A DNA stretch of 24,626 nucleotides from a virus: the IMG/VR virus record IMGVR_UViG_3300008108_000402, positions 1-24,626 of that record; one strand, 5' to 3'. The stretch's first letter is position 1, and each line of letters begins with the position of its first letter. Below, piece by piece: positions 696 through 23,004 of the stretch. The position numbers and the translations under genes are program-made. The notes below the pieces were generated by a model. It was not told where the DNA came from. It ran no database searches and worked only from the letters and a program-made list of their open reading frames with translations.

Positions 696-902
696 TCACC
701 CTTTGTAGGTGATAGGATTATACTTCAGAAACTCAAAGAATGTCAACTTCATTTCTTTGAGCGACATTCCACAGTGCTTTGCTGCTTCTGGAAGATTCAT
801 TTTAGAGTAAAACAAACCCTCATTTGCTTCTTTTACGTTCTGGGGGGTTGTTTTGACTGGTTCCTCTTTGAGGTTTTTATGTGAGATTTTGTATAAATTC
901 AT
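696..902 (-). CDS. Small protein with possible helix-turn-helix, function unknown (68 aa)
   Basis: The frame starts with ATG at 902-900 (MNLYKISHKNLKEEPV). The C-terminal half, residues about 34-60, reads KMNLPEAAKHCGMSLKEMK and then FFEFLKYNP. The pattern 'L-x-x-A-A-x-x-C-G-M-S-x-x-x-M-K' looks like a helix-turn-helix (compare 'eAAkhlgvs...'), so a small DNA-binding regulator is possible but unproven. There is no evident Shine-Dalgarno. Instead the leader carries the 53-bp element at 908-960 that recurs upstream of gene 59. The gene is followed by tRNA-Leu. Confidence 0.65.
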   Translation of the reverse strand: MNLYKISHKNLKEEPVKTTPQNVKEANEGLFYSKMNLPEAAKHCGMSLKEMKLTFFEFLKYNPITYKG

Positions 903-907
903 ACTTT

Positions 908-960
908 TTCAAAAAAGTATCGTGTGGAAAAATTTACCGGAATTTTTTAGGACCAAAAAT
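908..960 (-). repeat. 53-bp conserved leader element, copy B
   Basis: Minus-strand sequence 43/53 identical, ungapped, to 22021-22073. Shared blocks include TTTTTGGTC (one mismatch), AAAAAATTCCGGTAAA and TACTTTTTTGAA. It occupies almost all the intergenic gap: 5 bases after the stop of the 60-aa gene and ending 5 bases before the ATG of the 68-aa gene. The central part, AAAAAATTCCGGTAAATTTTT, can fold as a weak AT hairpin with a CCGGT loop. Role not known: a phage promoter class or a translational operator are the main options. Confidence 0.75.
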
Positions 961-965
961 GGAAC

Positions 966-1148
966 TTAAAGTGGATTTGCGTATGAGAGAGTGCTTTCGT
1001 CAAGTGTGTTGCGTACATAGTCTAACACATTCATAAACTCTTCGGTCGTATCGCAGGACACTTCTTTTTCTGACCCCTCACTGGAATACAGATACACAGT
1101 ACGCTTCAGCGGATCAACCACGCAGCGTGTCAGGTACTCATCTTGCAT
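966..1148 (-). CDS. Small early-type protein, function unknown (60 aa)
   Basis: ATG at 1148-1146, stop TAA at 968-966. The product begins MQDEYLTRCVVDPLKRTVYL. It is acidic overall and has a pattern of beta strands (VYLYSSEGSEKEVSC) followed by a helix (TEEFMNVLDYVRNTL). It is the first gene after a strong sigma-70-type promoter (1175-1203) and so is probably expressed early by host RNA polymerase. Small proteins of this sort are common beside tail-fibre genes in cyanophages. No function can be read from the sequence. Confidence 0.7.
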   Translation of the reverse strand: MQDEYLTRCVVDPLKRTVYLYSSEGSEKEVSCDTTEEFMNVLDYVRNTLDESTLSYANPL

Positions 1149-1174: not shown

Positions 1175-1203
1175 ACTATAGGACCTTTTGGGTCTGGTGT
1201 CAA
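1175..1203 (-). promoter_or_regulatory. Sigma-70-type early promoter
   Basis: On the minus strand TTGACA (1203-1198) is followed by exactly 17 bases and TATAGT (1180-1175), a perfect -35 and a 5/6 -10. It starts only 6 bases after the stop of the late fibre gene and points into the 60-aa gene. The spacer holds a short dyad, GACC-CAAAA-GGTC. It should be used early by host RNA polymerase. Confidence 0.85.
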
Positions 1204-20319: not shown

Positions 20320-21034
20320 TCAGTCATTTGCTAGTTTTGAAAAATAAGCAAGTGCATCATCTTCGTCATCATCATCTGAAGTAATCTTAGGAAGTGAAGG
20401 AGACTTACTGCGATTGTAAGACTCTTCAAGTTCTTCCATCACTTTACTTTCACGACTTGGAGTTTGAGTATAAGATTCAAACTCATCTTCCTGCTCAACC
20501 ACTGCACGAGACTTGGTAGGAGTATTAGTTCCACCAAGACCTAGAACATAATTCATACGCTTTTCAAGATCTTCATAGGTCTTGAATTGATCAGGAGCAG
20601 TTACTGCAGATAGAGAATACTCTTTCTTCCAAAGTGCTTCCAGAGCATCGTCATCATCCAGTAGAGGTGCTACACGATCAAACTCAGACTTATCGTAGTT
20701 CCAATAACCATCCTTCTTCACGATCTTGATCTTGAAGTTAGCACCCTGCCAGAAATCAAAAGGATTGATCGGATCTTCATCATCAAACTTCAATATACCA
20801 ACCACCAGGACCTTGGAATGCATGAGAATACATTTTTGCCCAAGGAAGTTCTTCACCTTCTGGTGCGGGCAGGAAACGAATCACTGCAGAACCAACACCA
20901 GTTTTATCCATTTCTGGTTTCCAGAAACGGTCATCAGGACCAGTAGAAGTGGTACTCATTTTTTCTACTTGCTTCACAAGTTTCTCAGTCAGTGAACCAA
21001 GCGAAGATTGCTTTTTAAGATTTTGAAATGACAT
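20320..21034 (-). pseudogene. 32: ssDNA-binding protein gp32-like, broken by an internal deletion with frame change
   Basis: The first part (21034 to about 20786) starts MSFQNLKKQSSLGSLTEKLV and runs through 'VIRFLPAPEGEELPWAKMYS' and 'HAFQGPGGWYIE', then hits TGA at 20785-20783. A second frame, from about 20790 to 20320, continues with 'KFDDEDPINPFDFWQGANFK', 'GYWNYDKSEFD', 'LLDDDDALEALWKKEYSL' and an acidic tail 'SDDDDEDDALAYFSKLAND'. Against T4 gp32 (301 aa), WYIE falls near residue 75 and the second part resumes near 160, so roughly 80-90 residues of the DNA-binding core are missing, including the zinc-ligand region. About 238 residues remain over two frames. Both ends look well conserved, so the loss is recent or an assembly or cloning error. 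Promoter and terminator are intact. Confidence 0.85.
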
Positions 21035-21109: not shown

Positions 21110-21428
21110 TCTGTTCTTTCATTACATCAAGCATTCTTGACATATTATTGAGAATGATATTCATATCAGTGCCAGGAGGCATTCCCATCATAACTGCAGA
21201 TTCAACAACTCTTTCTTTCATATCAACTGCTTCTGGATCATCAGATAAACTTAGTCTTGTATAAAGAACTTTTTGCTTATCTAAAAGTCTCTCTAGAACT
21301 TCAACGTGTTCCAGTTTCTCTTCTTTACTCATCGTAGGAAACTTAAAAATGTTCCCATAGATTTGCTCTTGAAGTTCTGCAATCTCAGTCATCTCTGCAC
21401 GGACGACTTCGGAACTAAAGAAACTCAT
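21084..21428 (-). CDS. DUF1825-like protein between gp59 and gp32 (114 aa)
   Basis: Begins MSFFSSEVVRAEMTEIAELQ, followed by 'MSKEEKLEHVEVLERLLDKQ', 'KVLYTRLSLSDDPEA' and a helical end with 'NNMSRMLDVMKEQID'. The order 'M-x-F-F-x-S-x-x-V-x-x-E', a 'K...E-x-L-x-x-L-x-D/E-x-x-x-V-x-x-x-R-x-x-L-S-D-D/E' block and a final Met-rich helix match my recollection of DUF1825 proteins, common in cyanobacteria. It is all-helical and probably coiled-coil. It overlaps the gp59 stop by 4 bases and its 3' end contains the gp32 promoter. Its position suggests replication-linked expression; function unknown. A host-derived origin is possible. Confidence 0.6.
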   Translation of the reverse strand: MSFFSSEVVRAEMTEIAELQEQIYGNIFKFPTMSKEEKLEHVEVLERLLDKQKVLYTRLSLSDDPEAVDMKERVVESAVMMGMPPGTDMNIILNNMSRMLDVMKEQIDKTGSDL

Positions 21429-22021
21429 TGATCCTCCAAAATAATATCTTTCAAGATTTTACGAAAACGAAATACGTCAATATTTAGGAATGGATTATAC
21501 TTTTTAATTCTACGACTAACGGTTTCCCACACTGGATCTTGAAGTTTTTTATCAAAATTTTTTGAATAAGCAAAGATTTTATCAAACAAAACCATTGTTT
21601 CCAAAGAGACCTGTCCACTTAGATATCTCTTTAGAAGAACTGGATGTCCTTTAGAACATTTAAAGACATCCTCAAATTTATTTTCTTCAAATAATGTTTG
21701 ACTTTCTTCTTTAAAAATATAAGACAATGATTGTATTTTCTTTTGCCAATTTTGATATCTTGCTTCTCCTTCTTTCATCATCTCACCAATCCAAAGTGAT
21801 TCTGGATCATTGCAAGATACAAAATTAGCAACAAAAAAATCTATAACTTCTTGATCCGATTTTTGTCGTGAGACCTTTTCAAACCACATCCTGTCCTTCC
21901 TTTTGTAAAAAGACTGAATTGTTGCACGACTTTTACCACAGTATTTGTGATAATCATAACTGTCTTTAGTGAAATGATTTTTTAAAGACAAATAACATTT
22001 ATAAGCATCAAAAGGCATCAT
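21425..22021 (-). CDS. 59: Helicase loader gp59-like (198 aa)
   Basis: The sequence tracks T4 gp59 (217 aa): 'YKCYLSLKNHFTKDSYDYHK', 'YKRKDRMWFEKVSRQKSDQE', 'VIDFFVANFVSCNDPESLWI', 'YQNWQKKIQSLSYIFKEESQ', 'LLKRYLSGQVSLETMVLFDK' and 'PVWETVSRRIKKYNPFLNID'. gp59 loads the gp41 helicase onto gp32-coated DNA at forks and recombination intermediates, so its place just ahead of gp32 fits. The start is one of two tandem ATGs (22021 or 22018). The leader has no Shine-Dalgarno but carries the 53-bp conserved element. Confidence 0.88.
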   Translation of the reverse strand: MMPFDAYKCYLSLKNHFTKDSYDYHKYCGKSRATIQSFYKRKDRMWFEKVSRQKSDQEVIDFFVANFVSCNDPESLWIGEMMKEGEARYQNWQKKIQSLSYIFKEESQTLFEENKFEDVFKCSKGHPVLLKRYLSGQVSLETMVLFDKIFAYSKNFDKKLQDPVWETVSRRIKKYNPFLNIDVFRFRKILKDIILEDQ

Positions 22022-22073
22022 TCAAAAAAGTAATATAGGGAAATTTTTACCGGAATTTTTTCCGACCAAAAGT
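22021..22073 (-). repeat. 53-bp conserved leader element, copy A
   Basis: Partner of 908-960: 43/53 identical without gaps. It fills the gap between gp33 (stop 3 bases upstream) and gp59, and its last base is the A of the first gp59 ATG. The copy contains CCCTATATTAC, a -10-like TATATT, but no matching -35. The variable 7 bases between TTTCC and ACTTTTTTGAA are where the two copies differ most. Confidence 0.75.
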
Positions 22074-22076
22074 GAA

Positions 22077-22334
22077 TTAAAAAATTAATTTTGCGCGGGA
22101 AGTTTTCTTGAGAAAGTTAAGTTCCATTGCTTCGTACTTAATCTTTTCCTTAAGAGGTTTTGAAATAAGTTTGGGAACAGATTCCAAATCAATATTGTTT
22201 TGCTCACAGAAATAAACAACCGCATCAATATAATTCATATCAGGATTTACCTGAACAAGACTTTCAATCTCCTGAGCAAACCGTGATGGGCAAAAGAATT
22301 TACTTTCAAGTACCTTTTCTAATTCATTCTCCAT
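22077..22334 (-). CDS. 33: Late transcription coactivator gp33-like (85 aa)
   Basis: The second half resembles T4 gp33: 'DMNYIDAVVYFCEQNNIDLE', 'SVPKLISKPLKEKIKYEAME' and 'LNFLKK' against 'GMSYLEATTAFLEENSIPET', 'QFAKFIPSGIIEKIQSEAID' and 'ENLLRP'. gp33 links RNA polymerase on late promoters to the sliding clamp, working with the gp55 sigma. The frame can be extended 8 codons to a TTG at 22358, but the ATG at 22334 (MENELEKV) with AGGT just upstream is the better start; it overlaps the exonuclease end by 11 bases. Slightly shorter than T4 gp33 (112 aa). Confidence 0.8.
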   Translation of the reverse strand: MENELEKVLESKFFCPSRFAQEIESLVQVNPDMNYIDAVVYFCEQNNIDLESVPKLISKPLKEKIKYEAMELNFLKKTSRAKLIF

Positions 22335-23004
22335 CTGACCTAGTATTGTGATGTACAAATTCTTTAATATAACGAACTAATAACTTAATATAATCTCCTT
22401 TGTTTCTTTTGTCAAATACCTTGACTTCTCCACCAGGAGTAACCATTAATGTGATAAGTTTTTTAACGACTTGTCCTGTACGTTCATAATAAGCAGCAGC
22501 ATAAAATGTTTCTTGAACAAAGTAGTTTTCAAGCCATTCTTCCGGTTTAATTTTTTCAGAAGTTTTAAAGTCTATGACTGCAAGTTCTCCCTCATATTCC
22601 CCAATACAATCCACTCTACCAGCGAGTCCCAGATATTCGGAATATAAAGTCCTTTCAATTGCGTGAATATTATTTATCTTATCAAGATAAGGTTTTGCGT
22701 GATGAAACATAATCTTTGTAATTGGTTGATAGTTATTCCAATCCAATTCTTTATTTTCCAAATAATCCTGACAAGCTTGGTGAAAATCTGTTCCTCTTGC
22801 TGTTGCTCTTTTTGTAATGCGGTTTGCTTCTTCCAGACCCACACGCTTTCGCCAATTAATGAAGATTTGACGATTGTAGAATGAGGTAACTGAAGTAATT
22901 GATGGCACCCATTGATCATCTGGAAGATGATACAACCGAATACCATTTGTTTCTTTCTTTTCTAGTTCAAGATCACCTAAAAAATTATGATGAGTAAAGG
23001 TCAT
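22324..23004 (-). CDS. PD-(D/E)XK exonuclease, RecB/Cas4-like family (226 aa)
   Basis: Nuclease motifs are in the expected order: His75 in 'RGTDFHQACQDYL', 'GLAGRVDCIGEYEGELAVID' with Asp132, 'VIDFKTSEK' with Asp145-Phe-Lys147, and 'VQETFYAAAY' (Gln164 to Tyr168, the QxxxY motif). This is the layout of the small RecB-like nucleases, including Cas4 and mitochondrial MGME1. The cysteines expected of Cas4 are absent, so it is more like the MGME1/phage exonuclease group. It probably trims DNA ends in recombination or host DNA breakdown. It overlaps phoH by 4 bases and gp33 by 11, forming one translation-coupled block. Confidence 0.8.
   Translation of the reverse strand: MTFTHHNFLGDLELEKKETNGIRLYHLPDDQWVPSITSVTSFYNRQIFINWRKRVGLEEANRITKRATARGTDFHQACQDYLENKELDWNNYQPITKIMFHHAKPYLDKINNIHAIERTLYSEYLGLAGRVDCIGEYEGELAVIDFKTSEKIKPEEWLENYFVQETFYAAAYYERTGQVVKKLITLMVTPGGEVKVFDKRNKGDYIKLLVRYIKEFVHHNTRSDGE

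Follow-up and report, generated by a model that had tools for sequence, protein, structure and literature searches.

The window, i.e., the whole 24,626-bp stretch of DNA analysed here, is a complete IMG/VR record from a T4-like cyanophage, presumably covering just part of a genome of far greater size. Two similar intergenic blocks, 908-960 and 22021-22073, are both read on the minus strand. The features around them are listed below; the element copies were delimited with model R2, which is described in the second section.

696..902, minus strand: 68-aa phrog_1920 gene, downstream of copy B
909..973, minus strand: element copy B (model R2, E 1.8e-11), composed of block 908-960 and a 5' part over the upstream stop codon
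966..1148, minus strand: 60-aa DUF7294 gene (PF23966, phrog_662), whose stop codon opens copy B
1175..1203, minus strand: sigma-70-like promoter TTGACA-17-TATAGT (promoter match), before the DUF7294 gene
21425..22021, minus strand: gp59 DNA helicase loader (PF08993/PF08994, phrog_269), downstream of copy A
22022..22085, minus strand: element copy A (model R2, E 5.4e-11)
22077..22358, minus strand: gp33 late-transcription coactivator (PF16805, phrog_254), whose stop codon opens copy A

The two copies in the window

Copy A occupies the 55-nt gap from the gp33 stop (22077) to the gp59 ATG (22021). Copy B lies within the 63-nt gap from the stop of the 60-aa gene (966) to the ATG of the 68-aa gene (902), and this DUF7294/phrog_1920 junction precedes the tRNA-Leu and tRNA-Thr genes. 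The similarity of the two blocks, recognized in the first-pass annotation of the window, was confirmed: they are identical at 43 of 53 positions, ungapped and in the same orientation. They are the sole pair in the window reaching at least 39/53, and such a pair was obtained from none of 40 dinucleotide shuffles of the window. An 11-mer of the element core is present only at copies A and B in the whole record. The element itself is about 65 bp, longer than the 53-bp block, and reaches into the upstream gene, covering its stop and final codons.

Reading of the sequence agrees with the first-pass annotation on the signals around the blocks. No Shine-Dalgarno sequence precedes either downstream start codon (gp59 and the 68-aa gene), no T4 late box of the TATAAATA type is present in either copy, and neither contains a full sigma-70 promoter, that is, -35 and -10 hexamers at 16-18 nt spacing. 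The Rfam scan of the window returned nothing at gathering score but two tRNAs.

Three further observations concern the same record. The sigma-70 promoter at 1175-1203 (minus strand) is a good match, and the DUF7294 gene after it opens a small-gene/tRNA cluster. At copy B (window positions 880-925, minus strand) and in its homologues L041 and L206, AUACUUU/AAAGUAU pairing is possible over the downstream start codon, with different loop lengths. The gp32 gene at 20320-21034 (minus strand) is divided between two frames that overlap, and about positions 84-161 of the PHROG profile are missing from it; a real deletion or an assembly error is possible.

Element family and its attachment to stop codons

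An exact AAAAAATTCCGGTAAA scan against IMG/VR revealed 48 loci, about 20 of which were judged by eye to be true relatives. Two wider IMG/VR scans provided many further copies and a fuller consensus, CGACTTTTAATTCC - A/T tract - GC arm - A7 - GC arm - A/T tract - ... - TTTTTT, in which conservation of the fixed letters used as seeds is partly by construction. The element body is a W-tract, a GC-rich arm, an A-run, a second GC-rich arm and a second W-tract, with a T-run behind them. Of the complete cyanophages tested with a sequence-only model, most have 1-3 good copies; Bellamy, S-SM2, S-SCSM1, and SynMITS9220M01 are among them. The second model (R2), for which 59 members were used, reached E<=0.05 in 26 of 27 records, the match being weak in several, and gave the window copies about 1e-11. 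The first-pass annotation had named a lack of further copies in the genome or relatives as a finding that would speak against its reading; instead, blastn with the consensus matched 110 phage records, 104 of which are named Synechococcus phage, Prochlorococcus phage or cyanophage. Judged by sequence, copies A and B belong to a dispersed element that is widespread in T4-like cyanophages and has copies that are often only 60-80% alike. Host origin was set aside after a search of approximately 85,000 prokaryote genomes with a 22-base probe, the single match of which was a cyanophage tail-fibre contig binned in a metagenome-assembled genome (MAG). The element looks phage-borne, one probe leaving room for diverged host copies.

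The constant neighbor of the element is the stop codon upstream. In 102 of the 109 unique non-edge copies for which flanking sequence sufficed, a stop codon on the same strand falls between -20 and +8 nt of the element start. The element starts at or just past this codon, and several copies supply it themselves (GAC-TTT-TAA). The upstream proteins fall into 23 families, mainly a DUF7294-like small protein (28 copies), a protein ending in KRK (19), gp33 (16), and gp32 (12). The downstream side is variable: as assigned by an ORF heuristic, the contexts are convergent (20), promoter (23), tight (40), loose (20), and other (6), where tight and loose refer to a start codon close by or further off. 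Both window copies belong to the tight co-directional class. Annotated junctions support the heuristic classes. In Syn19, Syn30, and ACG-2014a, the element lies between rightward gp32-region genes and the leftward, convergent gp53, while in Sf-CH5 it has transaldolase on one side and a small co-directional gene on the other, and in P-SSM2 it follows a dioxygenase gene and is itself followed by a sigma-70-like promoter along with a match to the glutamine riboswitch. In relatives where gp33 and gp59 directly abut, the element is missing from that junction, which indicates that the site of copy A is a gain/loss site.

These contexts bear on the function proposed in the first-pass annotation, that of a switch for the downstream gene, acting either as a middle-type promoter or as a translational operator of the RegA/gp32 kind. 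A real, shared and probably regulatory element with many relatives is supported; its assignment to the downstream gene is not, given that the upstream stop codon is what the copies have in common. The position next to a start codon holds for the tight co-directional subset but not for the other classes, and the family shows that a block directly ahead of a start codon can pertain to the preceding gene. Some 20 copies sit at convergent junctions, where no gene start follows, and 23 stand ahead of a separate sigma-70 promoter. The copies share no -10-like hexamer, and copies A and B have neither a sigma-70 match nor a late box. That the tight-class element reaches a start codon without a Shine-Dalgarno sequence, and is conserved there, is what a promoter or operator of the downstream gene would explain; overall, this reading is quite improbable. 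Action in RNA, which was also proposed, is plausible.

In the promoter class, the order is gene, element, NtcA-like site, a promoter of the TTGACT-N17-TATTAT type, glutamine riboswitch, and small ORF, with the NtcA-like site and the riboswitch seen in some of the copies. The NtcA-like GTA-N8-TAC behind the element is exact in 8 of the 23 copies. The glutamine riboswitch aptamer RF01739 was detected at gathering score at two loci, L106 and L078 of P-SSM2 (downstream stretches L106:10166-10217 and L078:1615-1666), and similar stretches are present in L145, L117, and L136. The small ORF behind the promoter and riboswitch has no assigned function.

Terminator signal and conservation by context

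The terminator signal was measured as the mean energy of a closed hairpin followed by TTTT, observed against shuffled sequences, with energy rules of model bacteria from which cyanobacterial RNA polymerase may differ. It reached -10.3 (shuffled -2.4) in the convergent class, -9.5 (-2.3) in the promoter class, and -6.0 (-2.6) in the loose class, whereas in the tight class it was -2.9 (-2.1), on a level with the shuffles. Set against the tight class, the other classes differed with p=0.001 for convergent, p=0.002 for promoter, and p=0.02 for loose copies; these context statistics are not fully independent, since same-junction copies of related phages are not independent and a few junctions dominate the promoter and convergent classes. 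By the usual criterion for intrinsic terminators, a GC-containing hairpin with an immediate T-run, the signal is present in the promoter and convergent classes and absent in the tight class, including copies A and B. An independent terminator scan flagged a promoter-class copy, in which the canonical terminator has 12 pairs, but found no terminator-like site in copy A or B. The hairpin of copy A is weak (-3.4), and copy B has no terminator-type hairpin.

The stem arms of the promoter class swap G-C and C-G (8 GC and 6 CG at pair 23-37; 11 GC and 4 CG at pair 24-36), which reads as a compensatory pattern. RNAalifold over 59 members gave no common structure (0 pairs), and the convergent and tight subsets yielded no single consensus structure either; a conserved RNA fold is therefore not claimed. 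Overlapping hairpins drawn by eye (CGACUUUU/AAAAGUCG, GGCAA/UUGCC, and AGGGU closing stems) were dropped, as they are not family-wide. A bidirectional terminator, suggested by strong reverse-strand hairpins, was weakened by the shuffle control (tight -5.5 against -4.3; convergent -7.6 against -4.2). Phased A-tract curvature of the DNA was set aside by inspection, the tract centers not being 10-11 bp apart.

The tight copies are nevertheless conserved despite their weak hairpins. The gp33/gp59 copies are 65-89% identical among relatives, a value somewhat inflated by AT-rich composition, while in the same comparison the third positions of gp59 match at 44-54% and its fourfold sites at 29-50%. 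The contrast is weaker for copy B, which is 81% identical to its closest homologue, the downstream gene showing 66% third-position and 53% fourfold identity. The excess over fourfold sites at the gp33/gp59 junction points to selection on a feature other than the hairpin. Since the tight copies are conserved beyond the level of synonymous sites, they evidently have some function.

One candidate for such a function is a sequence-specific 3'-end or pausing/processing site, where a DNA- or RNA-binding protein would read the A-run, TTCCGG, and the T-run, the hairpin being an option used at strong terminators. It would account for the tight copies, in which the sequence is retained although a terminator-type hairpin is missing, and for the absence of a family-wide structure. 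A candidate protein is lacking, however, and hairpin strength tracks context as in ordinary terminators, so this reading is fairly unlikely. In its most specific form, which is unlikely, a factor encoded or recruited by the phage would recognize these letters rather than the hairpin and, where genes end, would terminate, pause or cut the transcript. If true, cyanophages, whose hosts are without Rho, would own a sequence-specific, context-tunable 3'-end system, with the hairpin-poor copies A and B as its clearest examples.

The occurrence after 23 gene families and a gp33/gp59 junction found both with and without the element would also suit a recombination cassette without a regulatory role, offering boundary homology for gene swapping. 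Recombination needs neither a context-dependent terminator signal nor compensatory stem changes, and the frequently low identity of the copies (60-80%) also counts against it; as the only role, it is very unlikely.

Proposed function and comparison with known systems

The element is probably a mobile, stop-anchored, terminator-like cassette at the ends of genes, with the window copies as weakened intra-operon forms. At convergent and promoter junctions, the hairpin and T-run would terminate the upstream transcript. To our knowledge, cyanobacteria lack Rho. At tight junctions such as gp33/gp59 and DUF7294/phrog_1920, the element would probably act as a leaky attenuator or a transcript-processing point, lowering rather than blocking expression of the next gene.

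Like intrinsic terminators, the element has a hairpin and T-run past the stop codon, at convergent junctions and before promoters. It differs from them in being conserved over about 65 bp as a sequence family, in its A-rich loop and in a further T-run downstream, and in tight co-directional copies the hairpin is weak or absent. The tailed halovirus HF2 likewise has a class of sequence that recurs between its genes, but these intergenic repeats were tested for and carry promoters, according to PMC8707807, whereas the evidence for the cyanophage element favors 3' ends. T4-like cyanophages are described as having no MotA homologues, their middle mode being unsettled, in the available text of a review (PMC2984593) that covers early, late, and putative middle promoters of cyanomyoviruses and, in that text, makes no mention of terminators or intergenic elements. 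How transcription is delimited and graded in these phages is poorly known, and a cassette that follows 23 gene families with a hairpin strength following context offers concrete, testable sites.

The closest likeness is to the PeSLs (promoter early stem-loop), reportedly mobile regulatory cassettes of T4-type phages (Arbiol in 2010 and Comeau in 2014 are said to have described them). Both are short intergenic cassettes that occupy numerous gene borders in T4-type phages, where gene content varies, and both have a terminator-like stem-loop, which in the promoter class of the element is followed by a sigma-70 promoter. As with PeSLs, the cassette may also spread by recombination between copies. 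Unlike PeSLs, most copies of the element have no attached promoter (among them the convergent and tight ones, A and B included), and the element is anchored to the upstream stop codon, with many intra-operon copies lacking a stem-loop. Only 1-3 confident copies occur per genome where the element is found, short of the high density of PeSLs; S-PM2 is itself described in PMC4503421 as without the dense PeSLs that other T4-like phages have. A composite of a terminator stem-loop and a sigma-70 promoter, as described for PeSLs, is present in the 23 promoter-class copies. The arrangement of the promoter class resembles such composite terminator-promoter PeSLs, and an earlier description of the element is possible.
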